This document shows, piece by piece, positions 18,553 to 55,417 of a DNA stretch of 64,000 bases; the first letter of the stretch is position 1; each line of letters starts with the position of its first letter. Source of the DNA: Halorubrum sp. PV6 (GTDB taxonomy: Archaea; Halobacteriota; Halobacteria; Halobacteriales; Haloferacaceae); assembly GCF_003990725.2 (NCBI RefSeq), contig NZ_CP030064.1:1364001-1428000 (forward strand), given 5' to 3'. The translations under genes and the position numbers were made by a program. Under the pieces are notes generated by a model. It worked only from the letters and a program-made list of their open reading frames with translations. It was not told the origin of the DNA and searched no databases.

Positions 18553-18586
18553 AGGTGGGCCAACACGGATTTGAACCGTGGACCTC
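18553..18586. other. Attachment site copy inside the intact tRNA-Ile gene
   Basis: 18553-18576 is identical to 15751-15774, and 18577-18586 matches 15776-15785. The site covers the 3' acceptor arm, the T-arm and T-loop, and the bases just beyond the tRNA 3' end. The tRNA is intact here, so integration restored the gene, the normal outcome for tRNA-targeting integrases. Confidence 0.85.
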
Positions 18587-18629
18587 CCGGTTATCAGCCG
18601 AGCGCTCAACCTGACTGAGCTATTGGCCC
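18556..18629 (-). tRNA. tRNA-Ile(GAT)
   Basis: This is a 74-nt cloverleaf: 7-bp acceptor (GGGCCAA with TTGGCCC), D-arm AGCTCAGTCAGGTTGAGC, anticodon stem CTCGG/CCGGG with loop CTGATAA (anticodon GAT), and T-arm CACGG-TTCAAAT-CCGTG. The discriminator base is A and CCA is not encoded. Its 3' end is the integration target for the mobile DNA to its left. Confidence 0.97.
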
Positions 18630-40978: not shown

Positions 40979-41069
40979 GCGAAATCGTACGGTCCGGAGG
41001 GTACTGTGCGTTTCGCCGGCGGAGCGCCGTTTGCCCGTGCCGAGCCGTGGTATAACACTCGACGCGGTG

Positions 41070-41320
41070 GCGCGTGCCTGTGAGCGACCGGAGCGAAGCG
41101 GCGGTCGTGAGCCAGCACGCGCGAGGGAGCGGTGAGCGCTCGTGGAGCGCGAACCGCGAGGATGGGGAGGGCGTGGTTGCGGTGCTGTCGGGTGGACTCA
41201 AAGGGGCAGTCGCGAGGACGAAGCACGGCGACGCAAGGACCGGAACGAGAGAGCGAAAGCGACCGAGTGAGAACCGCAGCGAGTCGCGCGAGTCCTCGCG
41301 ACTGGGGCTTTGGTGGTGTT
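41070..41320 (+). ncRNA. Candidate structured RNA, copy A
   Basis: No ORF here has coding character. Helices: GCGCGTGC/GCACGCGC (41070-41077 with 41115-41122); CGACCG/CGGTCG (41085-41090 with 41102-41107); GCGGT/ACCGC enclosing GCGCT/AGCGC (41129-41157); and a 12-bp stem 41208-41219 with 41292-41303, closed outside by CAAAG/CTTTG. TGCGGT (41178-41183) can also pair with ACCGCA (41273-41278) inside the terminal loop, giving a pseudoknot. The same helices with different bases occur at 54922-55175. Strand is inferred from a TATAA (41051) and from the order of the conserved segments. Confidence 0.7.
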
Positions 41321-41343
41321 CGTCGACGGGTCAGCATCAACTG

Positions 41344-41351
41344 CTTATAAA
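41344..41351 (+). promoter_or_regulatory. TATA element in the downstream tail of RNA copy A
   Basis: CTTATAAA lies about 30 bp after the conserved GGTGGTGTT end of the structured element, followed by CGAGTGGCCAGGGA. This matches the arrangement repeated five times after copy B, in which each 57-bp unit has a TATA box at the same place. Confidence 0.45.
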
Positions 41352-41468
41352 CGAGTGGCCAGGGATTTTTCAGGTGTTCGCGGTCGGGTCGTCGGCGACG
41401 GAAGCTAGATAGGCCGCCACGCCCCCGAGATTCGATCAGAAACGACCGGCAGTAGCGGTTCCCGGCTC

Positions 41469-41858
41469 TTACGCGTCACACTCCGCGAGCCACTCGTGAG
41501 CCCAGCCTTCTATCTCCTCGAAGACGGGCGCGAGCGACTCGCCCTTGTCGGTGAGACTGTAGTAGGTCGCCACCGGCGAGTCCTCCTCTAACCGGCGGTG
41601 GACGAAGCCGGTCTCTTGGAGATCGTCGAGCACGCGCGAGAGGGTCCGGGCGTTCGCGTCGGTCTCGCGTTTGAGTTCGTTGAATCGCGACTCGCCGTTC
41701 AGCAGTTCGTGGAGGACGACGAGCCGCCAGCGCGAGCCGATCTGTTCGAGCGAGTCGACGACGGGACACGGCGTCTCAAGGGTCGAAGACGCCGTCGAGT
41801 CGCGTTCTGTGTCGCCCGCTTCCGCCGCGTCGTCTCCGGAGAGCTCCTGTGAGGACAT
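41469..41858 (-). CDS. HxlR-family transcription regulator with redox-type cysteine
   Basis: This is a 129-aa protein. After a 28-residue acidic extension the HxlR winged helix runs PCPVVDSLEQIGSRWRLVVLHELLNGESRFNELKRE...ARTLSRVLDDLQETGFVHR. Cys31 falls where bacterial YodB/CatR regulators carry their quinone/diamide-sensing cysteine (CP...L.G.RW). The gene is divergent from doxX-VOC, whose bacterial counterparts catD-catE are controlled by such regulators. Confidence 0.88.
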   Translation of the reverse strand: MSSQELSGDDAAEAGDTERDSTASSTLETPCPVVDSLEQIGSRWRLVVLHELLNGESRFNELKRETDANARTLSRVLDDLQETGFVHRRLEEDSPVATYYSLTDKGESLAPVFEEIEGWAHEWLAECDA

Positions 41859-41927
41859 CGATGTTATCTACTTACCCAATTGTCCGGGAAGCGATAAATA
41901 GGTTACGTCCGTATATGTGGTTACACG
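41859..41927. promoter_or_regulatory. Divergent promoter/operator region of hxlR and doxX
   Basis: GATAAATA at about 41893-41900 lies some 30 nt before the doxX ATG, a good leaderless promoter. The hexamer GGTTAC occurs twice (about 41902 and 41919) as a direct repeat across the expected start of transcription, a possible HxlR operator. No separate TATA for hxlR is clear. Confidence 0.5.
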
Positions 41928-42377
41928 ATGTTAGCAGAAATCACGACGCTACCGCTACAGATCGACACCCCGTTCGCGGGTGAACTCTTCCTGCTCGGTC
42001 GGATCCTGTTCGGGGCCACGCTCGCGTTCATGGGACTGAACCACTTCATGGACCTCGACGCGATGGCCGGCTACGCGAAGTTCAAGGGGCTCCCGTTGCC
42101 TCGCGTTTCGGTGATCGGGTCCGGTCTCGTGCTGCTCTTGGGCGGGCTCGGCGTCGTCCTCGGGGCGTTCCCCGTCGTCGCCGGCGGCGCGCTCGCCGTC
42201 TTCCTGCTCGTCTCCGCCGTGACCATGCACGACTTCTGGTCGGTCGACGACCCCGAGGAGAAGCAAAACGAGATGACGGGTTTCCTGAAGAACGTCTACG
42301 GCGCGGGCGCCGCGCTTGCGCTGCTCGCCGTCGGCGGCACCGCGTGGCCGTACGCGGTCGGCCTCGGCCTCTTTTAA
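41928..42377 (+). CDS. DoxX family membrane protein
   Basis: This is a 149-aa protein with four transmembrane helices. LGRILFGATLAFMGLNHFMDLDAMAGYAKFKGLP is the typical DoxX start. Bacterial CatD, a DoxX member next to a catechol dioxygenase, helps resist quinones. Placed divergently from HxlR and followed by a VOC protein, it fits the same scheme. Confidence 0.88.
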   Translation: MLAEITTLPLQIDTPFAGELFLLGRILFGATLAFMGLNHFMDLDAMAGYAKFKGLPLPRVSVIGSGLVLLLGGLGVVLGAFPVVAGGALAVFLLVSAVTMHDFWSVDDPEEKQNEMTGFLKNVYGAGAALALLAVGGTAWPYAVGLGLF

Positions 42378-42461
42378 ACCGAGCGGCCGCGTTTCGGGCG
42401 TTCGAACGGCGATTCGTCGCCAGTATCACTAACTGACCTCGCAACCACCGGACAGACGACC

Positions 42462-42944
42462 ATGACCGACGCGCCGCCCACCACCGGACTGCACCACGTG
42501 ACGAACATCTGCACCGACATGGACGAGACGGTCGCGTTCTACGAGGACGCGCTCGGCTGGCACACCGTCAAACGGACGCAAAACTACGACGATCCGGGGA
42601 CGCCCCACTACTACTTCTCGTCGACGCCCGAGGGCGAACCGGGGACCACGGTCACGTACTTCGAGTACCCCAACTCGCAGGGCGCCCCCGGTCCGGGCGC
42701 GAGCCACCACTTCGCGTTCGGCGTCGCCGACGAGGAGACCCTCCGCGAGTGGCAGGCGCACCTCCGCGATCAGGGCGTGCGCGTCTCCGAGGTGAAAGAC
42801 CGGACCTACTTCAAGAGCATCTACTTCAGCGACCCCGACGGGCTCGTCTTCGAGCTGGCGACGGAGGGGCCGGGGTTCACCCACGACGAGGCAAAGCCGG
42901 GCAGCGAGGAGATAAACCCGTTCGCGGCGGAAGGCGGCGACTGA
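42462..42944 (+). CDS. VOC family (glyoxalase/extradiol dioxygenase) protein
   Basis: This is a 160-aa protein with two beta-alpha-beta-beta-beta modules. Metal ligand candidates are the His in GLHHVTNI, the His in ASHHFAFGV and the Glu in DGLVFELATEG, the 2-His-1-Glu triad of extradiol dioxygenases and relatives. In the catDE arrangement the partner is catechol 2,3-dioxygenase. Glyoxalase or thiol-transfer activity are alternatives. Confidence 0.8.
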   Translation: MTDAPPTTGLHHVTNICTDMDETVAFYEDALGWHTVKRTQNYDDPGTPHYYFSSTPEGEPGTTVTYFEYPNSQGAPGPGASHHFAFGVADEETLREWQAHLRDQGVRVSEVKDRTYFKSIYFSDPDGLVFELATEGPGFTHDEAKPGSEEINPFAAEGGD

Positions 42945-42986
42945 AGCGGGGTCGGACGACCCCAGCGGAACCGCCGTCGACAGCGC

Positions 42987-43481
42987 TCACGCGCCGGCGT
43001 CGCTCGGGTGACCGCTCGGCTCGGACTCGACCAGCCGCGCGAATCGGTCCAGCGCCCGCCGGCAGACCGGCACTTACCAGGCCGCGACGAGGGGCACCTC
43101 GATGACGACGCGGCTGCGGTCGGCGTCGCCGGCGTAGCGGTCGACCCGGTGGCCCGTCGCGGGGATGCCGCCGACCCGCCAGTCCCAGCGGCGCCCGGTA
43201 CAGGCCGTGACCCGAAACGGGACCCACGCGCCGCCGACTTCGACGCGACCCGTCGTTCCGCGGGTGACGAAGCGGTCGTCGCTCTCGACGGCGTCGATGG
43301 CCGGACCCCAGGCCGGCCACGCGGCGGTGTCGCGGAGACGTCGAGCGGCGACCGCGGGCCCGACGGCGACGTCGCGTCCCACCGCGAGCGTCGTTCCCTC
43401 GCGAGCGACCGTCGACGCCGACTCGCCGTCGGAATCGAAACGCGCGTTCGATTTGCTGCCGGCTTGAGCGCGGTAATTCAC
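42987..43481 (-). pseudogene. SRPBCC-type protein with premature stop at 43074
   Basis: The frame reads from GTG 43481 as a START/polyketide-cyclase-like domain (VGRDVAVGPAVAARRLRDT, AWPAWGPAIDAVES and VVIEVPLVAAW) and hits TAA at 43074-43076. Directly beyond the stop the same frame continues with VPVCRRALDRFARLVE to TGA 42987-42989, exactly the C-terminal helix such proteins need. One base change (TAA to TAC or TAT) would restore a 164-residue protein, so this is a nonsense allele, an error, or a natural short form. Confidence 0.65.
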
Positions 43482-43602
43482 GATTCGTCCAACGGACTCG
43501 GCGCAGTTAACCCGAAGTATATTAATACCTTATATGGTATCAGGTATCATTATCACATTCCACGAAGGGTTGATACAGGGATCCGCGAAATGGCGTAGCA
43601 AG

Positions 43603-43719
43603 ATGGCAGACGACCGCAAAACCATGAAAGACGTCTCGCACACAGCACCGAACGACACCTCGGCGAAAGGAGTCTGGCGACGAGGCCGCGGCCTCACCGA
43701 AGAAGAGGAAGAAGAGTAG
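43603..43719 (+). CDS. Small charged protein, 38 aa
   Basis: The frame from ATG 43603 gives a short basic-then-acidic peptide ending in a run of Glu. An upstream in-frame ATG (43534) would add a poorly coding AT-rich part. TATA-like AT-rich sequence with repeated GGTAT motifs lies at 43515-43560. Small charged proteins of this sort are common in haloarchaea; no function is recognised. Confidence 0.45.
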   Translation: MADDRKTMKDVSHTAPNDTSAKGVWRRGRGLTEEEEEE

Positions 43720-43881
43720 CGAACGCCGAGATTTTCTGGCCTTCTCTGTCCTCTCAGCGACGCTCGTGAGCCACCGCTCGTGACCGGCTCGCGTCTCGGC
43801 GTGCGCCCCGCGGCGGTTGTCACGCGACCCGAGCCGTTGACCGGTCGACACCCTCTTTGACCTCGTTCGTGCATACGTCGC

Positions 43882-44397
43882 ATGGTCGGAGCCACACTCG
43901 GGTTGACCGGTATCGCGACGGTGACGCTGCTTTTGGCGCTCAGTGCGTTCTTTTCGAGCGCTGAAACGGCCATCTTCTCGCTGTCGGCGGAGTGGTTCGA
44001 CCAACAGATCGGATCGGACGACCCGCGAGCGAGCGTGCTCAAGGAACTCCACGACGACCCCCACCGACTGCTCGTGACGCTGCTCGTCGGAAACAACGTC
44101 GTCAACGTCGCCATCTCCAGTATCCTGACCGTGCTCGTCGCCAGTTACCTACCCTCCGGCGCCGCGGTCGCGGTGGCGACCGCGTGTACGAGCGTGCTCG
44201 TGATCGTGTTCGGCGAGATCGTTCCGAAGGCGTTCGGGCTGGGGAACGCCGAGACGTGGTCGCTGCGGGTCGCGTCCCCGATCCGGCTGACAGAGCGGGT
44301 TCTCTCGCCGCTCATCACGCTGTTCGACGGGATCACCCGGCGGATGACCGCCTACATCAGCGGCGACGCGAACATCGAGACGCCGTACACCGACTGA
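43882..44397 (+). CDS. DUF21 (CNNM-type) membrane protein without CBS domains
   Basis: This is a 171-aa protein carrying the DUF21/CNNM transmembrane domain: SAFFSSAETAIFSLS, LLVGNNVVNVAISSILT and GEIVPKAFGLGNAE are its hallmark segments. Family members usually have cytoplasmic CBS and CorC domains; both are missing here and the gene ends with a clean stop, so it may be a short natural form. CNNM proteins are linked to Mg2+ or Na+ transport. Confidence 0.85.
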   Translation: MVGATLGLTGIATVTLLLALSAFFSSAETAIFSLSAEWFDQQIGSDDPRASVLKELHDDPHRLLVTLLVGNNVVNVAISSILTVLVASYLPSGAAVAVATACTSVLVIVFGEIVPKAFGLGNAETWSLRVASPIRLTERVLSPLITLFDGITRRMTAYISGDANIETPYTD

Positions 44398-44541
44398 CAC
44401 CGGACGCGAGGCGATCGGTCGGCGGACGAGGCGGACGGGGCGGACGGGGCACCGACGTGTGCGGTCGCGAACCGGCGGTCCGTTCTCGGAGGTGATACCC
44501 GCGGAGGTGGGTTTAAACGGGGGCGCTGTCATTCGATATTC

Positions 44542-45588
44542 ATGATCGAGGTGGAGGGGTTGCGGAAGACCTACGGCGACTTCGCGGCCGTCGTCGACAG
44601 CGACTTCTCCGTCGAAGAGGGCGAGGTGTTCGGCATCGTCGGCCCGAACGGCGCCGGCAAGACGACCACGCTCAAGATACTCGCCGGGCTCATCGACCCC
44701 ACCGACGGCGAGGTCACGGTCGCCGGCTTCGCCTCCGACGACCCGGAGATGCGCCGGCAGTTGGGGTTCCTCCCCGAGGAGTCGCCGCTGTACGAGGAGA
44801 TGACGCCGCTCAGTTATCTCCGCTTTTTCGCCGACCTGTACGACGTGCCGCGCGAGGCGGCCGACGAGCGGATCGAGGCCGCACTCGACCGGCTCGAACT
44901 CGACCACCGCGAGCGCCGCCTCGGCGACATGTCGAAGGGGATGAAACGGAAGGTCGCCATCGCCCGGTCGCTCGTCAACGACCCCGACGTGTTGGTGTAC
45001 GACGAACCGGCCTCGGGGCTGGACCCGGTGACGACGAACTCCGTGCTCGCGTTCACGCGCGAACTCCGCGAGACGGGCAAGACCGTGGTGTTCTCGGCGC
45101 ACAACCTCTATCACGTCGAGTCCGTCTGCGACCGGGTCGCCGTGATGAACGAGGGGCGCATCGTCGCTCGCGGCAGCGTCGACGGCATCCGCGACCGACA
45201 CGGCGAGACGGCCTACCACGTGTTCACCGACGTTCGGCCGGCCCGTACCGACGCGCTGGCCGCCCTGTTCGAGGACGATGGCGCCGCCGACGCCGCCCCG
45301 GAGGAGGTCGGTGACCGATTCCGGACGACCGTCCCGACGATGGACGCGGTCGAGGCGGTCCGCGAGGCCGCCGCCGAAGCGGGCGGGCGCGTCGTCGACA
45401 TCCGCAGCCGAGAGCCGAGCCTCGAAGACGTGTTCCTCGACATCGTCGGGCGGCCCATGCCGGGCCGGTACACCGGCGGCGCGGCGGAGCCCGAGGAGGG
45501 GACGGGGGATGCGACGGACGCGACGAAACCGGCCGACGCGACGGACGCGACGAAACCGACCGACGAGCCGCCGGAGGAGGCCGAGTGA
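44542..45588 (+). CDS. ABC-2 type transporter ATP-binding protein
   Basis: This is a 348-aa protein. Walker A GPNGAGKTTT, Q-loop GFLPEESPLYEEMT, signature MSKGMKRKVAIARSL, Walker B VLVYDEPASGLDP and the His loop VFSAHNLYH are all present. A C-terminal extension of about 130 residues ends in a Thr/Asp/Lys-rich repeat (ATDATKPADATDATKPTDE). TTTAAAC at about 44510 is its promoter. It is coupled (GTGA) to the first permease, forming an exporter of the drug/Na+ type. Confidence 0.92.
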   Translation: MIEVEGLRKTYGDFAAVVDSDFSVEEGEVFGIVGPNGAGKTTTLKILAGLIDPTDGEVTVAGFASDDPEMRRQLGFLPEESPLYEEMTPLSYLRFFADLYDVPREAADERIEAALDRLELDHRERRLGDMSKGMKRKVAIARSLVNDPDVLVYDEPASGLDPVTTNSVLAFTRELRETGKTVVFSAHNLYHVESVCDRVAVMNEGRIVARGSVDGIRDRHGETAYHVFTDVRPARTDALAALFEDDGAADAAPEEVGDRFRTTVPTMDAVEAVREAAAEAGGRVVDIRSREPSLEDVFLDIVGRPMPGRYTGGAAEPEEGTGDATDATKPADATDATKPTDEPPEEAE

Positions 45589-47555
45589 GCGAACGACCGG
45601 GTCGGTCACGGCGGCTCATTCGCGGGGTTTCGAGCCGGCTCCGGCGCGTCCTCCGGGTCGCTCGGTGGGAGACGGCGCGGGCGGGCGGCGGCGTCGACCG
45701 CCGGACCGCTCTCGCGGCGCTGGCGCTCCTCCTCGTCGCGGTCGGCGTCCTCGGCGCAGGGGTCGCGGCGGGCGTCGTCGGCCTCGACGTCGACCGCGAC
45801 GTGTACCGGGTCGGCGTCGACCGCGACACCCCGTACGCCGACGCCGTCGAGGCCGAGCCGTCGCTCACGCGCGTCCCCGCGCAACGGGCACGGCTCGGCG
45901 ACACGGCCGATCTGGTCATCGTGACGAGCGGCCCGCCCGACACCGCCGAGGCGGTGACCGTCCTCGCCAGCAACAGCAGGAAGGGGGAGGCCGCGGCGGC
46001 CGCCTTCCGCGAGGCGGTGGCGGCGCACAACGAGCGAGTGATGGCCGCCGAGGAGAACCGGACCGCCGCGTTCCCGATCACCGTCACGCTCCAGTACGTC
46101 GGTCGGACGAGCGGGCTCGAAACCGATTCGACGCTCGGGGACGATAGCGACGCCGGTTCCGGAGCGGGTGGGGGGAGCGATGGAGAGTCCGGTTCGGGCG
46201 GCGGCGGGAGCGGCGACGGCGGGGGCGACGACGGCGGCGCAGGCGGTGACGGCACCGCCGGCAGCGACGCCGCGGGCGGGAGCGTCGCGGACGGCGACGG
46301 CGGCCTCGCGGTCCCGTCGGTCGGCGGCGGGGCGTTCCGCGCCGACACGGTTGGGTCGCCGGGGTCGATATCGCCGCCGTTCCCGTTCGTCTCGCTCCTC
46401 TTGGCGTTCGTCTTCCTCGTGCCGATGAACTTCCTCATCCAGGCGTACGGCTCCTCGATCCTCGACGAGCGAACGAACAGGCGCGGGGAGCCGCTGCTCG
46501 TGACGCCGCTCTCGCCGGTCGACATCGTCGCGGGGAAGACCCTCCCGTACGTCGCGGTCGCGGCGGTCGTGACGACGCTCATCGCCCTCGCCGTCGGCGG
46601 CGGAGCGCTCTCGGTGGTCGCCGTGCTGCCGGTGGCGATGACCTTCCTCGGAGCCACCTTCGTCGGCGCGATGTTCGCGCGGTCGTTCAAAGAGCTCACG
46701 TTCGTCACGGTGGGCGTGAGCGTACTCCTGACGACGTACGCGTTCGTCCCGGCCATCTTCACGAACGTCACGCCGGTGGCGCTCGTCTCGCCGCTGACGC
46801 TCGTCGTCTTCGACCTGCAGGGCGAGCCGGTCGGCATCGGCGAGATACTGTTCTCGACGGGGCCGATGACGGTCGGGGCGGCGCTGCTCTTCGGCCTCGG
46901 TCTCGGCGTCTACCGCGAGGAGGACATGTTCACCCAGAAGCCGGTCGGTCGGAAGTTCCTCGACGCGCTCGCGGTCCGGCTCGCGGCGGTCGGGGAGACG
47001 CCTCCGGCGACGTCGCTGTGGAGTCGTCTCCGGCCGCTCGCCCCCGTCGCGTTCCTGACGGCCTGTACGGTCCCGTTCGTCTTCGTCGCCGAGCTGTTGG
47101 CGGTCGCGCTGCTGTTCGCGCTCCCGGTGACGGTGTCGATCCCCGTCCTCCTGGTCACCATCGCGTTCATCGAGGAGTTCGCGAAGAGCGTCCACCTCTA
47201 CGCCGGCTTCGAGCGCGGCGCTTTCGTCCGCGGCGACCGCGTCGCCGTCGCGGTCGGGAGCGCGTCGGCCGTCGGCTTCTTCCTCGCCGAGAAGGCCACG
47301 GCGGTCGTGCAGGCGGTCGGGCTCACGGAGCTGTACGTCGGGCGCGCCGCCTTCGGGAGCGTGGCGGGCGTCGAAGGGCTCCCGGCGATCGCGATCGCGG
47401 GGCTGTTCTTCGCGCCGCTTTTGCTCCACGGGTTCACGACCGTCCTCGCCGCGGTGGGCGCGAGTCGGAACCGGACGTACTACGTCCTGACGCTGGCGCT
47501 GGCGGCGTTGATCCACGCCGCCTACAACTTCGGGGTGGTGCGGCTCTATGCGTAG
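45585..47555 (+). CDS. ABC permease fused to a PrsW-like intramembrane protease domain
   Basis: This is a 656-aa protein. The first part (about 1-440) is an ABC-2 permease with a large Gly/Asp-rich extracellular loop (about 180-255) and six or so helices. After residue 460 a second membrane block contains TIAFIEEFAKSVHLYAGFE and later LAALIHAAYNFG: an EExxK-like glutamate motif and a conserved His of PrsW-type proteases. Fusion to a permease is unusual. The GTG start overlaps the ATPase stop; the end overlaps the next permease by 8 bp. Confidence 0.8.
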   Translation: MSERPGRSRRLIRGVSSRLRRVLRVARWETARAGGGVDRRTALAALALLLVAVGVLGAGVAAGVVGLDVDRDVYRVGVDRDTPYADAVEAEPSLTRVPAQRARLGDTADLVIVTSGPPDTAEAVTVLASNSRKGEAAAAAFREAVAAHNERVMAAEENRTAAFPITVTLQYVGRTSGLETDSTLGDDSDAGSGAGGGSDGESGSGGGGSGDGGGDDGGAGGDGTAGSDAAGGSVADGDGGLAVPSVGGGAFRADTVGSPGSISPPFPFVSLLLAFVFLVPMNFLIQAYGSSILDERTNRRGEPLLVTPLSPVDIVAGKTLPYVAVAAVVTTLIALAVGGGALSVVAVLPVAMTFLGATFVGAMFARSFKELTFVTVGVSVLLTTYAFVPAIFTNVTPVALVSPLTLVVFDLQGEPVGIGEILFSTGPMTVGAALLFGLGLGVYREEDMFTQKPVGRKFLDALAVRLAAVGETPPATSLWSRLRPLAPVAFLTACTVPFVFVAELLAVALLFALPVTVSIPVLLVTIAFIEEFAKSVHLYAGFERGAFVRGDRVAVAVGSASAVGFFLAEKATAVVQAVGLTELYVGRAAFGSVAGVEGLPAIAIAGLFFAPLLLHGFTTVLAAVGASRNRTYYVLTLALAALIHAAYNFGVVRLYA

Positions 47556-48603
47556 TCGCGGCAGCCGGCTGACGATCGCCGGTCGAGAGCTATCGGGGCT
47601 GCGCGCGGAGAAGACGATCCTGCTCGCGATCGGCATTCAGCTGTTCATCGCCGCGTTCTCGTCGTTCCTCGTCGTCGGACTCGTCTCGATGTACGACCCC
47701 GGCTCGCTCGGCGGCGCGGAGGTCGAGGTGGCCGGCGCCGGCGACGCGGTGGCCGACCTCGAACGCGCCGCGGCCGAAGTCGAGGGCGCGTCCGTCACGC
47801 GCTACGAGGACGCCGGCGCCGCCCGACTCGCCTTCGACCGCAACGCGGCCGACGCGGTGGTGGTCGCCAACCGGAACGACGACGGCCGGATATCGGCGGT
47901 GGTCACCGCCCCGGACGCGACCGTCGAGACGACGGTGATCGTCGTCCAACTGCGCGACCTGCTCCGGACGTACGAGCGCCAGGAGCGGGCGGACCGGGCC
48001 GACCACCTCAGCGAGTCGCCGCTGCCGCTCCCCGAGCGCACCGGCACCAGCCCGTACTTCACGTTCACCTACACCGTGTTGATCCCCGTGTTAGTGTTCC
48101 TGCCCGTGTTCATCTCGGGGTCGCTCGTGGTGGACTCGATCACGGAGGAGCTAGACGAAGGGACCTTCGAGCTGCTGCGCGTCGCCCCCGTCACGCTCGG
48201 GGAGATAGTCGACGGGAAGGCGCTGGCGGCGGTCGCGATCGCCCCCGGACAGGCGCTGTTGTGGCTGCTGCTGTTGCGTTTCAACGGGACGCCCGTGGCC
48301 AACGTCCCCTCGATCCTCGCGTTGATGACCGGGCTCACGACGCTCGTCGTCGCGCTGGCGCTCGCCATCTCCGCGCTCGCGCCGGACCGGCGGGCGGCGC
48401 AGTTCCTCTACTCGATCGGCGTCCTCGTCCTCTTCGGCGGCGCCACGGCGATGGCGGGCGGGCCGGCGAACGCGGTCGCGCGGCTCGCGATCGACAGCGC
48501 CGACGCGACGACGACGGCGCTCGTGGTCGCGTACGTCGGTCTCGCCGCGGTCGCGTACGTCGGCGTCAGAGCCATCGTCGCGGAGAACGGGTTCGAGGCG
48601 TGA
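47548..48603 (+). CDS. ABC-2 type transporter permease
   Basis: This is a 351-aa permease with an N-terminal helix (LLAIGIQLFIAAFSSFLVVGLVS), an extracellular domain of about 140 residues, and five C-terminal helices including the VFLPVFISGSLVVDSITEELDEGTFELLRVAPVT segment typical of ABC-2 permeases. It starts inside the end of the PrsW-fusion gene (ATG 47548) and completes the three-gene exporter. Confidence 0.88.
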   Translation: MRSRGSRLTIAGRELSGLRAEKTILLAIGIQLFIAAFSSFLVVGLVSMYDPGSLGGAEVEVAGAGDAVADLERAAAEVEGASVTRYEDAGAARLAFDRNAADAVVVANRNDDGRISAVVTAPDATVETTVIVVQLRDLLRTYERQERADRADHLSESPLPLPERTGTSPYFTFTYTVLIPVLVFLPVFISGSLVVDSITEELDEGTFELLRVAPVTLGEIVDGKALAAVAIAPGQALLWLLLLRFNGTPVANVPSILALMTGLTTLVVALALAISALAPDRRAAQFLYSIGVLVLFGGATAMAGGPANAVARLAIDSADATTTALVVAYVGLAAVAYVGVRAIVAENGFEA

Positions 48604-48724
48604 GGTCGGCACCCGTCTCATACATAAAAGACGTATAAATGGCCAATCGAGCGTCGACGGGCCATCATTCGCTTAAAAGAGCCGCGCCGCTCGGTCGGGA
48701 GAGCCGAACCGCTCGGGCAGGGTA

Positions 48725-49066
48725 TCAGTCGTCGTCGGCCGCCGCGCCGTCGGCGTCCCCGGCCTCGGTCGCCGCCGCGTCTTCGATGCTCGGCGGGTAC
48801 TTGCCGCGGTCGAGTTTCAGGTCGGACTGCGGCCGCGCCATGCAGGTGAGCGCGTACTCGTCGGCCTCCTCGTCGGTGAGCCCGCGAGCCGCCGGCTGGG
48901 TCACCTCGCCCTCGACGATCTCCGCGGAACAGGCGAGACACATCCCGACGCGGCAGGAGTACTCCTGGGCGATGCCCGCGTCGATACAGGAGCTGAGAAC
49001 CGTCTCCGTGTCGGCCACCTCGATCGTCTCGCCGGTGCCGACGAACTCGACGGTGTACTCGGTCAT
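48725..49066 (-). CDS. [2Fe-2S] ferredoxin, plant type
   Basis: This is a 113-aa protein. CRVGMCLAC plus a later CMARP give the four-cysteine pattern of a plant-type [2Fe-2S] ferredoxin; the C-terminal 20 residues are acidic. It is a soluble electron carrier, with possible partner the AOR or other oxidoreductases. ATG 49066 begins the family-typical MTEYTVEFVG. Confidence 0.92.
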   Translation of the reverse strand: MTEYTVEFVGTGETIEVADTETVLSSCIDAGIAQEYSCRVGMCLACSAEIVEGEVTQPAARGLTDEEADEYALTCMARPQSDLKLDRGKYPPSIEDAAATEAGDADGAAADDD

Positions 49067-49200
49067 ACCGCGGAGTATCCGCCGGCCCGTAAAAAAGGGT
49101 TCCCCTCGATCGCGTCGTCGTCGCGGGAACGGAACCCGCGGGAAACGGCGGCTGTCGCACCCGAGCGAGGGTACGAACGGGGTCGTCTCGTCCGGCGGCG

Positions 49201-49863
49201 CTACGACGCGGGACGCCCCGCCGACTCGTCGGCGGCGGCGAGCAGGTACCCGCCGAACGCGGGCAGCCAGATGATGAGCGGATAGACGACCCAGCGCTCG
49301 ATGCCGCCGGCGCTGAGAAACTGGAGCGGCGAGGGGCCACCGACCACGATCCCGTAAAACAACACGCTGAGAAGGACGACGAGGGAGACGCCGCCGAAGA
49401 GCCCACAGAGGAACGAGAAGGGCCTGGGGACGACCCGCGACGAGAGGACGACGGTGATGCCGCCGGCGAAGAACGTGAGCATGGCGAAGAGCCCGTGCCA
49501 CGGCGTCACGTTGCCGGGGAACACGCCGACGCCGAACGCGCCGAACCCGAACACGGCGAGCGCGAGCGGGAAGCCGCGGCGGTCGGCGACGCGGTAGAGG
49601 AGGTACGCGGAGAGTATCACCAGCAGGCCGGTCACGAGCATCGTCGTGTTGAAGATGGTCGCCGACGGCTCGAAGCTCACCGGGTTCGGCGGACGGGTCG
49701 AGCCGAGGTCGCTGATGTCCTGCTGGGTGGAGTAGTTCGGGTAGAGCACTTCCGCCGTGATAATGCCCATAAACCCGATAAACCCGGAGAGCGCGAGCGC
49801 GAACCCGGCTATCGCTCGCTCGGAGAAGCCGACCGTCGACTGGAGGGTGTCCGTAGTATCCAT
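49201..49863 (-). CDS. DUF998 family membrane protein
   Basis: This is a 220-aa protein with six transmembrane helices. The segment YPNYSTQQDISDLGS and the following helix pattern match DUF998. A TATA-like CGATTATTCC on the minus strand (about 49888-49897) lies 30 nt before the ATG; an ATTAGACACG half-site sits between them (49868-49877). Confidence 0.82.
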   Translation of the reverse strand: MDTTDTLQSTVGFSERAIAGFALALSGFIGFMGIITAEVLYPNYSTQQDISDLGSTRPPNPVSFEPSATIFNTTMLVTGLLVILSAYLLYRVADRRGFPLALAVFGFGAFGVGVFPGNVTPWHGLFAMLTFFAGGITVVLSSRVVPRPFSFLCGLFGGVSLVVLLSVLFYGIVVGGPSPLQFLSAGGIERWVVYPLIIWLPAFGGYLLAAADESAGRPAS

Positions 49864-49867
49864 AATT

Positions 49868-49877
49868 GATTAGACAC
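49868..49877 (-). promoter_or_regulatory. Half-site resembling the exporter operator
   Basis: The plus strand reads ATTAGACACG here, identical to one arm plus spacer of the palindrome at 51916-51931 read on the minus strand. It lies at the expected transcription start of the DUF998 gene, where a repressor would block initiation. Only one arm is well kept. Confidence 0.4.
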
Positions 49878-49973
49878 GACTGGGCGGAATAATCGTTCCG
49901 GTGTTGTGACAACACGGCAAGACAGTGGCACGCGCAGCCCGCGAGAGGCCGCAATAGCCCGCGTGCGCCGACG

Positions 49974-50417
49974 TTACTCGGTCGCCGACGCCGAGACGGT
50001 CATCACGGGGACCGTCGCGCCTCGCACGACGCGTTCGGCCACGCTGCCGACGACGCGGCGAGCCACGCTGTCCCGACCGTGCGTTCCCATCACCACGAGG
50101 TCGACGTCGTGGTCCGCCGCGTAGCCGAGAATCGCCTCGTCGACGCTGCCCTCGCGGACCTCGGTGCGGGTCGGGGCGTCGTACCCCGCGGCGAGGTCTT
50201 CGAACGCCGTCAGCGCCCGGTCGCCGGCGACCTCGCTGACCTCTCGCAGGCTCTCCTCGACGTCGAGCTTCGAGACCGTGAGCCAGTTCGTCCCGGTGTC
50301 GACGACGTACAGGCCGTGAACCGTCGCGTCGAACGTCTCCGCGAGGCCGAGGGCCTGCCGAGCCGCCGCCGTGGAGTGGTCGCTCCCGTCGGTGGGGAGG
50401 AGGATGTGGTCGTACAT
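49974..50417 (-). CDS. Universal stress protein (UspA family)
   Basis: This is a 147-aa protein. ILLPTDGSDHSTAAARQAL starts the fold; the ATP-binding loop MGTHGRDSVARRVVGSVAERVVRGATVPVM shows the G-2x-G-9x-G(S/T) pattern, so it is probably an ATP-binding form. It follows the exporter gene by one base and is probably cotranscribed with it. Confidence 0.92.
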   Translation of the reverse strand: MYDHILLPTDGSDHSTAAARQALGLAETFDATVHGLYVVDTGTNWLTVSKLDVEESLREVSEVAGDRALTAFEDLAAGYDAPTRTEVREGSVDEAILGYAADHDVDLVVMGTHGRDSVARRVVGSVAERVVRGATVPVMTVSASATE

Positions 50418-50418
50418 C

Positions 50419-51714
50419 TCAGAGCACCCCGAAGCCGAACTGGGCGTACGGCCAGAAGTAGTAGACGAGCAGCCCGGTGATCACGCCGGGGATAGTCGTG
50501 TAGATGGTCGCCACGATGGCGGCTTTCATGTCGATGGCCATCAGCGGGAACAGCGCGTCGCCGTCCTGACTGATCGCGTTCGCGACGAGCGCCGAGAACG
50601 GGATCGCCTCCTCGATCGCGTACAGCTGTGCGAACACGATGTGGGCGGCACAGCCGGGAATCAGCCCGAGCATGGCGCCCGCGATAGGCGCCATCGCGCC
50701 GGCGGCCGCGGCGAAGCCCTGAACGTCGACGCCGGTGAGGAGCAGGCCGTACTCGTAGAGGAGGTAGCCGGCGATGACCCAGACGGTGACCATCGCGGTC
50801 TCCATCGCGGCGTGTCGGAAGGTCCCGTACAGGTCGGCAAAGGAGTCCCGGACGCGGCCGGCCTCGCTCCGCCCGATGTAGTGGCGTCCGACGAAGTACA
50901 GGTAAAACGAGAGGGTCGTGCCGAGCAGCCCGCTGACCGTGAACAGCCCGTCGTACGTCGCCGTGACGGCCCACTCTGGTTCGACGGCTCCCTTCGCGAG
51001 GTACATCACGCCGGCGACGAGCGCGCCGGCGAGGGTGATCCACCAGAGCACGTGGACGACGTGGCTGACGCGTTCGAGGAGCCGCGAGTCCGGCAGGTAG
51101 CTCGGGAGGTCGCTCGCGCGGTCGTGGCCGTGGCGGCACTGGGCCCCGCTGTCGTCGCCGTCCGGCCCGTCGTAGTCGGGGATGCTCGGACCGCCGGCGG
51201 CGACGTTGGCGGTCGAAAACCCGCCGTCGGTCACCGGGCGGCTCATCCGGTCGACCAGCCTGTCGACGCGACCGACGCCGAGCCCGCCGTAGTCGATGGC
51301 GTAGCCGAACAGGATCGCCGAGATGAACGCCAATCCGTAGGCGTAGATGGCCGCCTCGGGCGCCAGCGCGAGGATGACGAACGCCGAGTCGCCGGCGGTC
51401 GCCGCCAGCGCCGCGACGACGGTCCCGAAGCTGACCGTGCCGCGAATGTACAGCGGCATCGCGATGATCGCCCCGCCACAGCCCGGCGTCAGCCCGAGGA
51501 GCGCGCCGGCGAGCGGCTGGGCGCGTTCGTTCTCCTCTAACCACTTCGTGATCCGACCGTCGTATCTGAACTGCACGAGGCTAAACAGGAGGATGGTCGC
51601 CCCGACGAAGCCGGACACCTGAACGAACCCCTCGCGCCACGAGCCGATGAGGATGTTCGCCACCTCCTGAAGCGGCGAGCCCAACAGGTCGGGGGGTAAC
51701 ACGAGCGGGATCAT
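50419..51714 (-). CDS. Putative Mn2+/heavy-metal exporter, 10-TM family
   Basis: This is a 431-aa membrane protein made of two related halves: LLGLTPGCGGAIIAMPLYIRG in the first and MLGLIPGCAAHIVFAQLYAIE in the second. This doubled GLxPGC motif is that of the putative manganese/arsenic exporter group (ArsP_2-like). A His/Asp-rich loop (CRHGHDRASD) between the halves could bind metal. ATG 51714 is coupled (ATGA) to a 47-codon ORF upstream. Confidence 0.78.
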   Translation of the reverse strand: MIPLVLPPDLLGSPLQEVANILIGSWREGFVQVSGFVGATILLFSLVQFRYDGRITKWLEENERAQPLAGALLGLTPGCGGAIIAMPLYIRGTVSFGTVVAALAATAGDSAFVILALAPEAAIYAYGLAFISAILFGYAIDYGGLGVGRVDRLVDRMSRPVTDGGFSTANVAAGGPSIPDYDGPDGDDSGAQCRHGHDRASDLPSYLPDSRLLERVSHVVHVLWWITLAGALVAGVMYLAKGAVEPEWAVTATYDGLFTVSGLLGTTLSFYLYFVGRHYIGRSEAGRVRDSFADLYGTFRHAAMETAMVTVWVIAGYLLYEYGLLLTGVDVQGFAAAAGAMAPIAGAMLGLIPGCAAHIVFAQLYAIEEAIPFSALVANAISQDGDALFPLMAIDMKAAIVATIYTTIPGVITGLLVYYFWPYAQFGFGVL

Positions 51715-51854
51715 CGGAACGCACCGTCCGAGGGAGCCCGCGCCGTCGGTGCGACCGGGCCGGCCCGCCCGGTGGCGGCGTTCGTCCGGTCGAGGGAGAG
51801 ACAGAACAGATCGTGAGTCTCGAGATCGCTGAGAGTGTCGCCTGATATCGTCAT
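51711..51854 (-). CDS. Small ORF, 47 aa, upstream of the metal exporter
   Basis: ATG 51854 opens a 47-codon frame whose TGA overlaps the exporter ATG (ATGA). TTTTATC on the minus strand (about 51887-51893) lies 33-39 nt before this ATG and none is seen close to the exporter start, so the transcript should begin here. The peptide has one cysteine and a Pro/Ala-rich end. It may be a leader that couples exporter translation. Confidence 0.5.
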   Translation of the reverse strand: MTISGDTLSDLETHDLFCLSLDRTNAATGRAGPVAPTARAPSDGAFR

Positions 51855-51915
51855 AGACGCTGAACGAGTATCGGTGGTCGCCCGAAGGATAAAAGGGTGT
51901 CTCTCTAATCGTAAA

Positions 51916-51931
51916 ATTAGACGTGTCTAAT
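51916..51931. promoter_or_regulatory. Palindromic operator upstream of exporter-usp operon
   Basis: ATTAGAC-GT-GTCTAAT is a perfect inverted repeat with 7-bp arms, about 25 bp beyond the TATA element of the operon. The arm TTAGAC resembles DtxR/MntR/SirR-type sites, which suits a metal exporter. A related half-site lies before the DUF998 gene (49868-49877). Confidence 0.55.
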
Positions 51932-52002
51932 CTTTTGGCGTTCAGTCGTCTCGGTCGCTCTGTCGGGAACACGCGGAGACGACGCCGACGCCGGCCGGCC
52001 GG

Positions 52003-53697
52003 TCACGCGTCGGGTGACGCCGCGGACGGCGGCTCGTCGAACGCCGACGGCGACTCCATCGTCGCGTCTCGCACGACGTATCTCACACCCTCCTCGTACC
52101 CGTGGTCGAGGGCGACGCGCCACCCCTCGACGCGGGCGAGCGCGCGGACGTTCGGCAGCGACATCCCGGCGTCGGCGCGGGGTTCGGCGCTCTCGTACTC
52201 GAAGAGCAATGACCCCCCGTCGGCGGCCGTGAAGCGCCCGTCGTCGGCGACGGCGAACCCGTCGTCGGTCACCGTCACCGTGAGCGTCTCCGCCTCGTTG
52301 AAGGCGGCGAACGCGAGCGCGTTTTTAAATAACTGTTCGAGACGCGTGGGCACCGCGACGACGCGACCGGCGCCTTCGACGTGGACGTCTACGTCGACGT
52401 CGGTGGCGCGCTCTGCGCCCCTGACCGCGTCCGTGAGCGAGACGAACGCCGACTCGTCGGTGTCGCGCGCGTGGTACGCCAGCGTGTGAAGGTCCTCTAT
52501 CACCGTGCCGATCTGTTCGATCCGCCGCCGCGCCACCGCGGCCGACTCGGCGGCCCCCTGTTCGTCTCCCGACTCGATCCGATCTATCGTCTGCGCGAGG
52601 TACCCGTCGGCGACGGCGACGCCGTTCCGCAGTTCGTGAGCGATGGCGCCCGCCATGTCGCTGAGCTGTTCCTCGTGGCGTTCGATCCGCTCGCGCCGGT
52701 CCTCCCGGTCGGTCACGTCCTGAACGAGGACGGCCCAGCCGAACGACTCGCCGCCGATTTCGAGCGACTCTCCGGCGACGTAGTAGCTTCGCTCGCCCTC
52801 GCCGCCGGGGTCGACGGCGACGATCGACGGCTCCGCCGCCCGATACGCCTCGGCGACGGCGAGCGAGACGGCCTCGATCTGCGTCTCGCCGGCCGCGAGC
52901 GACGGAAACAGCTCTTCGGCGCGGTCGTTACGGTCCCGCACGCGGCCGTCCGAGTCGATCACGAGGACGGCGCCGGCGGTCCGCTCGACGAACGAGCGCG
53001 TCGCGGTCCGTTCGACCGCGCGGAACGTGTCGTCGACGACGTACACCACACCGACCGCGAAGACGGCCACCCCGAGCGGTTCGTAGCTCAGTTGCGGCAG
53101 CGTCGCCGAGGTGGTACGGGCCAGGAGGTTCGGGACGACCGCCAGCCCGGTCGCCGCGAACAGCGCGGCGAGGGGGAGCGACGACTGGTCGGACTCCCGG
53201 TACAGCCGGTACAGGAAATAGAAGCCGACGCCGGTGAGGGCGTACGCCAAGACGAACGTCGCCACGTACAGCGGCCCGTGGTCGACGACGAGCAGTCGGA
53301 CGGGCTCCCGTTCGAGCGTCGCAGAGAAGTACCGGCCGTGGATCGGGTTGGTGAGCTTCTCGATCGTGACGACGAGGAACCCGAGGAGACCGACGATTCG
53401 ATACGCGGGCCGGCGGTGGTACTCCAGCCCGGCGTACGCGGAGACGAAGTACAGCCACGCGAACGGCGTCGCGAACCCCACGACCAACGAGAGCGTGAAG
53501 AGGGTGATGGCCGTCTGCTCCTGCGTGGCGAGGAGCACGCCCGCCTGCAGGAGCGCCCACGTCCCGACGATGACGAGCAGCCACCGGAGGCCCTGCTTCG
53601 CGTCTTGGTTCCGTAACCGCGAGCCGTGGAGCGTGGCCGCGAAGCAGACCGCTCCGGAAACGGCGAACAGCCCGACGAACCACCACGACGTGGCCAT
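52003..53697 (-). CDS. Membrane sensor histidine kinase with 7-TM input domain
   Basis: This is a 564-aa protein. Seven helices (about 1-215) of the haloarchaeal kinase N-terminal type, a PAS domain (about 235-335, TAGAVLVIDSDGRVRDRNDRAEELFPSL), the H-box MAGAIAHELRNGVAVADGYL, N-box QLFKNALAFAAFNEA, and a degenerate ATP domain (GMSLPNVRALARVEGW). No response regulator is adjacent. The signal is unknown. Confidence 0.88.
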   Translation of the reverse strand: MATSWWFVGLFAVSGAVCFAATLHGSRLRNQDAKQGLRWLLVIVGTWALLQAGVLLATQEQTAITLFTLSLVVGFATPFAWLYFVSAYAGLEYHRRPAYRIVGLLGFLVVTIEKLTNPIHGRYFSATLEREPVRLLVVDHGPLYVATFVLAYALTGVGFYFLYRLYRESDQSSLPLAALFAATGLAVVPNLLARTTSATLPQLSYEPLGVAVFAVGVVYVVDDTFRAVERTATRSFVERTAGAVLVIDSDGRVRDRNDRAEELFPSLAAGETQIEAVSLAVAEAYRAAEPSIVAVDPGGEGERSYYVAGESLEIGGESFGWAVLVQDVTDREDRRERIERHEEQLSDMAGAIAHELRNGVAVADGYLAQTIDRIESGDEQGAAESAAVARRRIEQIGTVIEDLHTLAYHARDTDESAFVSLTDAVRGAERATDVDVDVHVEGAGRVVAVPTRLEQLFKNALAFAAFNEAETLTVTVTDDGFAVADDGRFTAADGGSLLFEYESAEPRADAGMSLPNVRALARVEGWRVALDHGYEEGVRYVVRDATMESPSAFDEPPSAASPDA

Positions 53698-53902
53698 GAG
53701 TAATGTGTACTTCCTGTGACCAAATGAAGGTATTTGCTCCGAAGTGACAGGCTTTCGACGAGGGTGGAGCTGTCGTCGCCGTCAGCGGCTCACTCCTGTG
53801 CCCGCACTCATCGGGCTCGCACCCGCGCGCACACTCTCTGGGCTCACGCCCGCGCTCGCACTCATCGCAACGACTAATCCCCCGCCGGACGCTTCCCGAG
53901 GT

Positions 53903-54901
53903 ATGACGGAAAAAGCGACCGCGCGAGCCCACCCGATCCAGGGGCTCGTCAAGTACCACGGGATGCGCGACGAGCAGCTTCGGCTCCCGTACCACGACAG
54001 CATCAGCCTCTGTACCGCGCCCACCGCGACGACGACGACGGTCGAGTGGCAGCCCGACGCGAGCGAGGACACCTACGTCATCGGCGACGAGGAAGTCGAC
54101 GGGCGGGCCGCAGAGCGCATCGACATGGTCGTCGACTACGTTCGCGAGCTGGCCGGGGTCGACGCCGCGGTCCGGCTGGAAAGCGAGAACTCCTTCCCGT
54201 CGAACATCGGCTTCGGCTCGTCGTCGTCCGGCTTCGCGGCCGCCGCGCTCGCCTTGGTCGAGGCCGCCGGGCTCGACATGACGCTCCCCGAGGTCTCGAC
54301 CGTCGCCCGCCGCGGCTCCTCCTCGGCTGCTCGCTCGGTGACGGGCGCGTACTCGCGGCTCGACGCCGGCCTCAACGACGAGGACTGTCGCTCCTACCGC
54401 CTCGAAACCGGCGTGAACGAGGACGGGTTCGACCCCGAGGAGGACCTCCGGATCGTCGCCGCGCACGTCCCCGCTTATAAAGAGACCGAGGAGGCACACC
54501 GCGAGGCCGCCGCGAGCCACATGATGCAGGCGCGGACCGCCCACGTCCAGGACCAGCTCGTCGAGATGACCGACGCGCTCCGCGAGGGCGACTTCGACCG
54601 GATATTCGAGACGGCCGAGCACGACTCGCTGTCGCTGACAGCCACGACGATGACCGGTCCCGCGGGCTGGGTGTACTGGCAGCCGGAGACCATCGCGGTG
54701 TTCAACGCGGTCCGCGAACTCCGCGAAGAAGGCGTCCCCGTCTACTTCTCGACGGACACCGGCGCCTCCGTCTACGTGAACACGCTCGCGGACCACGTCG
54801 ATGCGGTCGAGTCGCGGATCGCCGAAATCGGCATCGACACCGACGTGTGGGAGGTCGGCGGCCCCGCGCACGTCCTCGACGAGAGCGAGGCGCTCTTTTA
54901 A
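53903..54901 (+). CDS. mvaD: Phosphomevalonate/diphosphomevalonate decarboxylase family (GHMP)
   Basis: This is a 332-aa GHMP-fold enzyme of the mevalonate route to archaeal isoprenoid lipids. HPIQGLVKYHGMRDEQLRLPYHDSIS is the family start; NSFPSNIGFGSSSSGFAAAALAL is the phosphate-binding GHMP loop; RRGSSSAARSVTGAY follows with STDTGASVYVNTL near the end. In haloarchaea the enzyme acts on phosphomevalonate. ATG 53903 starts the family N-terminus. Confidence 0.88.
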   Translation: MTEKATARAHPIQGLVKYHGMRDEQLRLPYHDSISLCTAPTATTTTVEWQPDASEDTYVIGDEEVDGRAAERIDMVVDYVRELAGVDAAVRLESENSFPSNIGFGSSSSGFAAAALALVEAAGLDMTLPEVSTVARRGSSSAARSVTGAYSRLDAGLNDEDCRSYRLETGVNEDGFDPEEDLRIVAAHVPAYKETEEAHREAAASHMMQARTAHVQDQLVEMTDALREGDFDRIFETAEHDSLSLTATTMTGPAGWVYWQPETIAVFNAVRELREEGVPVYFSTDTGASVYVNTLADHVDAVESRIAEIGIDTDVWEVGGPAHVLDESEALF

Positions 54902-54921
54902 AAGAAACCGCGATGCGGTCG

Positions 54922-55175
54922 GCGCGCGCCTGCGAGCGGTCGCCCGCGGCGGCCGCGAGTCAGCGCGTGCGAGGGAGTCGGGCGGTCGGAGCGACGCGGA
55001 GGCCGCCCGACGAGGGTGGGGAGGCCCGAGGCTGCGGTGCGGTCGGGGTGGGACTCAAAGGGGCAGCCGTGAGACCGGCGTAGGCGACGCAAGCACCGCA
55101 GTGAGTGAGCGGAGCGAACGAACGAGGAACGAAGCGAGCGTACGCCGGTCTCACGGCTGGGGCTTTGGTGGTGTT
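54922..55175 (+). ncRNA. Candidate structured RNA, copy B
   Basis: This is the same element as at 41070-41320. Helices: GCGCGCGC/GCGCGTGC (54922-54929 with 54963-54970), GCGGTCG/CGGCCGC (54936-54942 with 54950-54956), GTCGGGCGG/CCGCCCGAC (54977-54985 with 55003-55011), and an 18-bp stem (55065-55082 with 55141-55158) closed by CAAAG/CTTTG. CTGCGGTGC (55032-55040) can pair with GCACCGCAG (55093-55101) inside the loop. Nearly every stem differs in sequence from copy A yet still pairs. Unpaired segments such as ACTCAAAGGGGCAG and CTGGGGCTTTGGTGGTGTT are identical. Confidence 0.72.
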
Positions 55176-55417
55176 ACCCGTCGATCCGAACTCAACTATT
55201 TATAAGCGAACGGCTGGGGCTTTAGTGGTGTTACCCGTCGATCCGAACTCAACTATTTATAAGCGAACGGCTGGGGCTTTAGTGGTGTTACCCGTCGATC
55301 CGAACTCAACTATTTATAAGCGAACGGCTGGGGCTTTAGTGGTATTCACCGTCGATCCGAACTCAACTATTTATAAGCGAACGGCCGGGAGTTTGGTGGT
55401 GTTACCCGTCGAATCAA
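55154..55417 (+). repeat. 57-bp tandem repeat, four full units and a partial fifth
   Basis: Units start at 55154, 55211, 55268, 55325 and 55382, exactly 57 bp apart. Each begins CGGCTGGGGCTTT and ends with CAACTATTTATAAGCGAA; TTTATAA boxes are at 55199, 55256, 55313 and 55370. Each unit repeats the 3' end of RNA copy B plus a TATA element. The 57-bp length keeps a reading frame open, but the translation looks accidental. Confidence 0.9.

Follow-up and report, generated by a model that had tools for sequence, protein, structure and literature searches.

ERIC, BOX and NEMIS are structured bacterial intergenic repeats of 100-400 bp, of which BOX also carries tandem internal units. REPINs, which are found in Pseudomonas and other bacteria, are extragenic and consist of a hairpin spacer that shows compensatory changes and is bounded by conserved ends; the associated RAYT is a Y1 transposase (PMC3116915). 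In haloarchaea, PATEs are common non-coding elements of Haloquadratum with near-terminal palindromes, and Haloquadratum walsbyi also harbors MITEs and small mobile repeats (PMC3119063). The class I intergenic repeats of the halovirus HF2 are promoters of 56-58 bp (PMC8707807), and ornate candidate RNAs combine covarying helices, fixed boxes and optional side domains (e.g. PMC2864571).

We have analysed a window of 64,000 nt from Halorubrum sp. PV6 (the whole stretch of DNA under study), which contains two copies, A and B, of a structured element belonging to a family without earlier name and without a matching Rfam family or open-literature description. At the gathering threshold, Rfam 15 recognizes only a tRNA at 18556-18629 in the whole window, and permissive searches of four loci returned chance-level matches only; the open literature, as distinct from subscription papers, contained nothing matching the box sequences or haloarchaeal repeats and motifs of this kind. 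The initial annotation, which had set the element apart from RNase P and SRP RNA, agrees with this lack of any matched Rfam family. REPINs are the closest kind to the haloarchaeal element, both being dispersed and extragenic, with conserved ends, a covarying hairpin spacer and population-like copies within a genome. However, the present element is archaeal and class-wide, its unit of 120-400 nt has internal motifs and optional side domains, and no Y1 transposase was detected in several element-rich haloarchaeal genomes. It resembles the PATEs, MITEs and small mobile repeats of H. walsbyi in being a non-coding, palindromic haloarchaeal element with many copies, but it shows no terminal inverted repeats apart from its palindromic TATA-like boxes and no observed IS605 link, and its stems covary instead of being conserved. 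With ERIC, BOX and NEMIS it shares the structured intergenic character and the size range, and with BOX the tandem units, but there is no sequence or taxonomic relation, and the haloarchaeal fold is ornate and class-wide. It has the covarying helices, fixed boxes and optional side domains of ornate candidate RNAs, although it matches nothing in Rfam and its copy number (at most ~190 per genome) is unusual for an ornate RNA. The HF2 repeats are close in length to its 57-bp units and also have an AT-rich promoter-like box; however, element B is unmatched in phage records, viral contigs contain no Halorubrum-type box2, and there is no evidence of homology.

Modular structure of the element

Two covariance models were used, R1 for the region from P2 to box2 and R2 for the whole core. 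The features of the two copies and of the genes flanking B are as follows.

41050-41351, + strand: copy A, the whole element from the 5' TATA-like box to the 3' TTATAA (R1 match 41121-41219, R2 match 41193-41314)
41050-41057, + strand: TATA-like GTATAACA of A, a candidate promoter ~16 bp 5' of GGTGGCGCG, which fits the AT-rich peak that 136 copies show at -17..-10
41066-41122, + strand: 5' box GGTGGCGCGTGCC and P1 hairpin (GCGCGTGC / GCACGCGC) of A, the outer P1 arms being conserved in sequence and without measurable covariation
41121-41170, + strand: box GCGAGGGAG, P2 hairpin GCGGT..ACCGC and box GAGGATGGGGAGG of A
41193-41314, + strand: core module of A, box2 (GGACTCAAAGGGGCAG) - P3 - box3, with an R2 match of 114 bits and covariation
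41230-41243, + strand: conserved inner P3 motif GACGCAAGGACCGG (type I) of A, opposite AACCGCAGCGAG at 41272-41283 (alignment A3, described below)
41302-41320, + strand: box3 CTGGGGCTTTGGTGGTGTT of A
53744-54901, + strand: diphosphomevalonate-decarboxylase-like gene 5' of B
54896-55412, + strand: copy B with its tandem 3' units, flanked by the decarboxylase-like and photolyase genes
54896-54904, + strand: TATA-like TTTTAAAAG of B, overlapping the stop codon TAA (54899-54901) that ends the decarboxylase-like gene
54918-54969, + strand: 5' box GGTCGGCGCGCGCC and P1 hairpin of B
54969-55024, + strand: box GCGAGGGAG, P2 hairpin and box GACGAGGGTGGGGAGG of B (R1 match 54969-55076)
54977-54987 and 55001-55011, + strand: P2 arms GTCGGGCGGTC and GGCCGCCCGAC of B
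55050-55175, + strand: core module of B (R2 match 55050-55169, 110 bits)
55050-55066, + strand: box2 of B
55064-55082 and 55141-55159, + strand: P3 arms of B
55086-55101, + strand: inner motif GACGCAAGCACCGCAG of B
55157-55175, + strand: box3 of B
55153-55412, + strand: tandem 57-bp units of B (4.6 copies, 94% matches), each unit containing both CTGGGGCTTTRGTGG and TATTTATAA
55428-56960, - strand: photolyase gene 3' of B

The initial annotation had reported two copies of an unnamed structured RNA with shared boxes and with stems that differ in sequence. The boxes GAGGGAG, GGACTCAAAGGGGCAG and CTGGGGCTTTGGTGGTGTT are indeed all present at the places given for A and B, and the stems remain complementary despite their different sequences, P2 being GCGGT/ACCGC in A and GTCGGGCGGTC/GGCCGCCCGAC in B, and the P3 arms CAGTCGCGAGGAC/GTCCTCGCGACTG in A and CAGCCGTGAGACCGGCGTA/TACGCCGGTCTCACGGCTG in B. 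The observation is far beyond chance. The folding z-scores are -5.4 (B) and -2.1 (A), and in the host genome R2 gives 114 (A) and 110 bits (B), both copies being among its 45 training sequences. The proposed pseudoknot between TGCGGT and a loop ACCGCA is not supported: the ACCGCA string occupies non-equivalent positions in A and B, the upstream TGCGGT is barely associated with it in Halorubrum (116 of 175 copies with the loop string versus 49 of 89 without), and in other genera the partner is absent for 20 of the 21 loops with ACCGCA. Copy B extends past the region first annotated, as a tandem 57-bp array up to 55412.

The full Halorubrum unit comprises, in its 5' part, a TATA-like box, GCGGTGGCGCGYGCC, P1, GCGAGGGAGTC, P2, GACGAGGCTGGGGAGG and a GGTGCGGTGCTG linker, and in its 3' part GGGTGGGACTCAAAGGGGCAG (box2), P3, CTGGGGCTTTGGAGGTGTTC (box3) and, after ~25-35 nt, TATTTATAA. 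The class-wide core, ~120 nt long, consists of box2 GGGACTSAAAGGGGCMG, the hairpin P3 and box3 GGGGCTTTS. The two boxes pair as CAAAG/CTTTG in Halorubrum versus GAAAG/CTTTC elsewhere, and their helix encloses an invariant GGG/GGG internal loop, followed by CAG/CTG or CCG/CGG. The inner part of P3 is either of type I, with GACGYAAGSACC opposite GGASCGCAGCGA, or of type II (GGTCGTCT..CCCCTATCCGCG..CGCGGATATGTCGG..AGCGACC), which is found mostly in family f17 and also in f4 genomes; the interiors of the two types differ, box2 and box3 being common to both (L309, L310, L312-L314, L319, L321-L324, L326, L336). Optional side domains (insA, insB and insC) lie at fixed offsets from box2 and are paired hairpins of varying sequence. 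One of them, insC (GGAAGTCGCAGC..GGACCGTCTTCC), is located between P2 and box2 (L365, L400, L144, L158, L177, L273) and is possibly a separate structural module. At least one extra unit of the 57-bp type occurs in 56 of 159 Halorubrum copies, with a spacing of mostly 57 bp.

Other arrangements are also encountered. Head-to-head module pairs (L245, L325, L331, L332, L333, L340, L341, L344) are recurrent in genus g19, their two box2 strings often lying ~49 bp apart with a short conserved GTAGCTGTTTGGCCAGCCGACAC-like spacer. In family f17 (L322, L323, L324), tandem repeats of ~27-31 bp (CACCGAAAACGGCCGGTGACACAATC-like) are found upstream of box2 and a second box3 ~57 bp downstream.

Across 136 copies, the AT-rich peak at -17..-10 marks the position of the TATA-like box; in one Halorubrum clade (L064, L072, L359-L418) a conserved GGTCAGTACAGGCGAAGGAGTGAGCGATCGCCGG forms the 5' leader instead. 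With the TATA-like box at this place, transcription would begin within or immediately 3' of GGTGGCGCGYGCC, so that the outer P1 would be left out of the RNA. The absence of an obvious TATA box from many non-Halorubrum copies counts against a promoter of the element's own, but to judge from the sequence the element is probably made as RNA from such a TATA-like promoter.

Compensatory changes and folding strand

For alignment A3, which gathers 45 type I modules from many genera (A and B included), RNAalifold predicts 28 pairs, 21 of them with two-sided compensatory changes. In this alignment 95.4% of cells are paired, and the covariation score reaches 0.601, versus 0.174 +/- 0.011 for shuffles and at most 0.083 for partner-slid controls. 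Among ~230 Halorubrum copies, the arms of P3 pair at 0.955 within copies versus 0.745 across copies and those of P2 at 0.84 versus 0.63, whereas the outer P1 shows no real difference (0.70 versus 0.68). The helices are kept by compensatory change, and the boxes, the GGG/GGG loop and the purine-rich inner loops are fixed. That the family and its fold are real is, in our judgement, close to certain. The "structured RNA" of the initial annotation is thus a conserved structure without a name, and its compensatory changes are genuine; however, it represents a high-copy dispersed repeat family and not a two-copy RNA gene. The same annotation had envisaged a mobile repeat without covariation: a repeat it is, but its covariation is strong.

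G-U pairs exceed A-C in A3 (47 versus 17) and in the outer stem of P3 among the ~230 Halorubrum copies (87 versus 24), whereas P2 (21 versus 23) and P1 (54 versus 73) have no such asymmetry. The excess in P3 indicates that in the core it is the plus strand that folds, and its absence from P1 and P2 suggests that some of the unit may work as DNA. Covariation above controls and G-U tolerance on one strand, the latter in the core module only, are what is expected of a structured RNA. However, the z-scores are similar for the folds of both strands, which counts against a single-strand RNA, and the strand asymmetry fits folded RNA and folded single-stranded DNA alike. Since the side domains are large and modular, RNA would be the likelier of the two, and we lean towards it as the acting form. 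A G-quadruplex of GGGNGGGACT-GGGG-GGGG is possible; its first tract is intact in 223 of 264 Halorubrum copies and in 37 of 51 other copies. Function-free template-switch repair of palindromes was also considered and was rejected, as it leaves the fixed boxes, the G-U asymmetry and the conserved side domains unexplained.

Distribution in Halobacteria

Both copies of the initial annotation are real, but they are not the only ones: the host genome holds ~16-19 copies according to R1 and 10 with the full P3 module according to R2 (all E <= 4e-13), and a pattern search finds the box3 string at many further sites. The covariance-model search that had been suggested has recovered many homologs. With up to 2 mismatches, the box2 string is present in 49 of 52 Halorubrum genomes, with 2-192 matches each versus ~1 in the reversed control. 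The variant box GGGACTGAAAGGGGCCG, common in other genera of the host's family, precedes the same module, and the core occurs across the class Halobacteria, in 193 of 292 genomes (56 of 77 genera), controls being near zero. Outside Halobacteria, 10 scattered single matches versus 19 in the reversed control amount to background. Three genomes of the genus Halorubrum (G067, G071 and G075) have no box2 match, while their sister species have tens to hundreds; they constitute useful natural knock-outs. A viral origin was dismissed, the four viral-contig matches to the other box being located in unrelated sequence without the fold, as was spread by plasmids, among which only three partial matches were found in 72,556.

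Orthologous sites and species-wide box changes

At locus B, directly 3' of the decarboxylase-like stop codon, the element is present in 15 of 30 Halorubrum species (12 with the full module), and in the remaining species it is absent or another gene lies there. Among these orthologs the flanking genes are ~90% identical, whereas the stems are strongly different with their pairing kept; in P2, the sequences differ and 7-9 of 9 positions pair. The decarboxylase-like gene ends in TTTTAA at occupied sites and mostly in TTCTGA, TTCTAG or TTCTAA at empty ones (L249-L278). Several species with an empty locus B (L259, L260, L264, L272, L277, L278) have a conserved small gene (~110-120 aa) there, flanked by the genes for the decarboxylase-like protein and the photolyase. 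At a second orthologous locus (L434/L136/L159) the element has likewise been kept and its stems have changed. The copies lie between genes and are inherited at orthologous sites.

In G016, CGAAG is accompanied by the matching box3 change (CTTC) in 13 of 13 copies fetched, and in G167 and G170 GGAAG is accompanied by CTTCC in 7 of 7; these copies were picked by their box2 variant, and the independent part of the result is the matching change in box3. Some of these variant sites hold CAAAG elements in relatives. Among the matches listed, exact CAAAG copies number 0 on the forward strand of G016 and 1 of 12 in G167, and this scarcity supports a near-complete sweep. A paired box change can thus be shared by most or all of the copies sampled from a species. 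In G019, two copies at different sites (L365 and L400) are identical over P1-P2 and show a compensated G/C swap inside P3, the other pairs sampled being more diverged. A recent burst in this genome was rejected: the best pair in a sample of 60 copies is just 91% identical over 465 bp, which indicates that movement is rare or old. Turnover fits rare copying together with in-place conversion or replacement. No clean empty-site pair was found among the sites compared, nor any evidence of excision, and this counts against the explanation that we prefer; the empty sites at locus B are too diverged to judge target-site duplication.

These distributions also bear on the nature of the element. A structured RNA that the host encodes in many copies for a role in the cell, be it a trans-acting ncRNA family or a protein-binding scaffold, would account for the class-wide conservation, which extends to genomes whose 1-3 copies lie at shared sites (L239, L241), for the ornate modular fold with its optional domains and for its being kept in place over speciation. 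However, the element is missing from some species of the genus (G067 and G075, at 98-99% completeness), the copy number varies from 2 to 192 within the genus, and sites are often empty in relatives. We consider such a host RNA doubtful, though it deserves attention, and judge it somewhat more probable that the element is mainly a replicator than that it is a host gene family.

Gene context

The 151 classified Halorubrum copies comprise 61 in convergent, 29 in divergent and 31 and 30 in the two tandem settings; four further copies are inside a predicted frame. The predominance of convergent settings (61 of 151), together with the position of B and its orthologs directly after a stop codon, is what a cis element between genes would show, acting in transcription termination, 3'-processing or as an insulator. 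However, the equal use of the two tandem orientations (31 versus 30) speaks against a cis role in the neighboring mRNA, many orthologous gene pairs lack the element, and its size, inner motifs and species-wide box variants would be superfluous for a terminator, which makes this explanation very unlikely.

Candidate mobilising proteins

Y1_Tnp (PF01797) was undetected at E <= 0.001 in the element-rich genomes G016 and G019 (104 and 103 box matches, respectively), G177-G179, G273, G058 and G346, and is present in the element-free G067, G075, G081, G082 and G140. This finding bears on a REPIN-RAYT-like explanation, in which a single-stranded DNA hairpin with conserved ends would be replicated by a domesticated Y1 (IS200-like) transposase. 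REPINs are likewise extragenic with conserved ends and a compensating hairpin spacer (PMC3116915), the element has such ends around a spacer with compensatory changes, and the single-strand asymmetry suits folded DNA as well as RNA. However, no RAYT with a Y1_Tnp domain was detected in the listed element-rich genomes, whereas Y1_Tnp is present in element-free ones, and the haloarchaeal element folds into a far larger structure to which optional side domains are added. The element was therefore not filed as a REPIN-RAYT system, an assignment that we regard as unlikely, but it may work in a REPIN-like manner via another enzyme or through RNA.

The abundance of tnpB is independent of the number of elements: G075 has 23 tnpB and no elements, G177 one tnpB and ~90 elements. 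A box occurs near tnpB in just 4 of 30 loci, at no consistent distance. PATEs being common, non-coding and near-terminally palindromic in Haloquadratum (PMC3119063), descent from an IS605-derived PATE or another miniature remnant of a known transposon was worth considering; however, neither the tnpB counts nor the positions of boxes near tnpB point to such a link, and the stems vary among copies, unlike palindromes recognized by a transposase. Such descent is extremely improbable. As regards MITEs, no terminal inverted repeat was seen beyond the palindromic TATA-like boxes. Among the Y1 and TnpB proteins tested, none emerged as the mobilising protein, which counts against our preferred explanation.

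Implications

The best reading is that of a vertically inherited, in-place homogenised, non-autonomous structured element. Our explanation in full, to which we assign a probability of roughly 55%, is a class-wide family of structured intergenic elements that behave as non-autonomous REPIN- or SINE-like replicators, with a machinery other than Y1 or TnpB. Transcription would start at the element's own TATA-like box, and the box2/box3 helix of the folded RNA, together with the G-rich internal loop, would be the site of recognition in trans. The majority of copies would be old and diverged, with rare new ones arising, and in-place re-copying or gene conversion would keep the population of copies coherent. 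The host may make use of the element, and a cis role on neighboring genes would not be needed. More tentatively, and with the odds somewhat against it, the element could represent a new kind of archaeal replicator: non-autonomous, RNA-structured and SINE-like. It would combine a fold that is ornate and modular with a promoter of its own and a trans-acting partner, and would rewrite the recognition helix simultaneously in every copy that a species carries.

Many of the intergenic hairpins and tandem TATA-containing arrays that lack annotation in Halorubrum would be explained by the family, and a covariance model is now on hand to annotate such elements. The contrast between CGAAG/CTTCG in G016 and CAAAG/CTTTG in its relatives designates test species for a trans-acting factor. 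If the preferred explanation is right, a non-coding feature that ranks among the commonest in haloarchaeal genomes, with up to ~190 copies per genome and a range spanning the class, has so far been unnamed, and it offers a natural experiment on how the many copies of a structured element stay coherent when no known transposase is at work.
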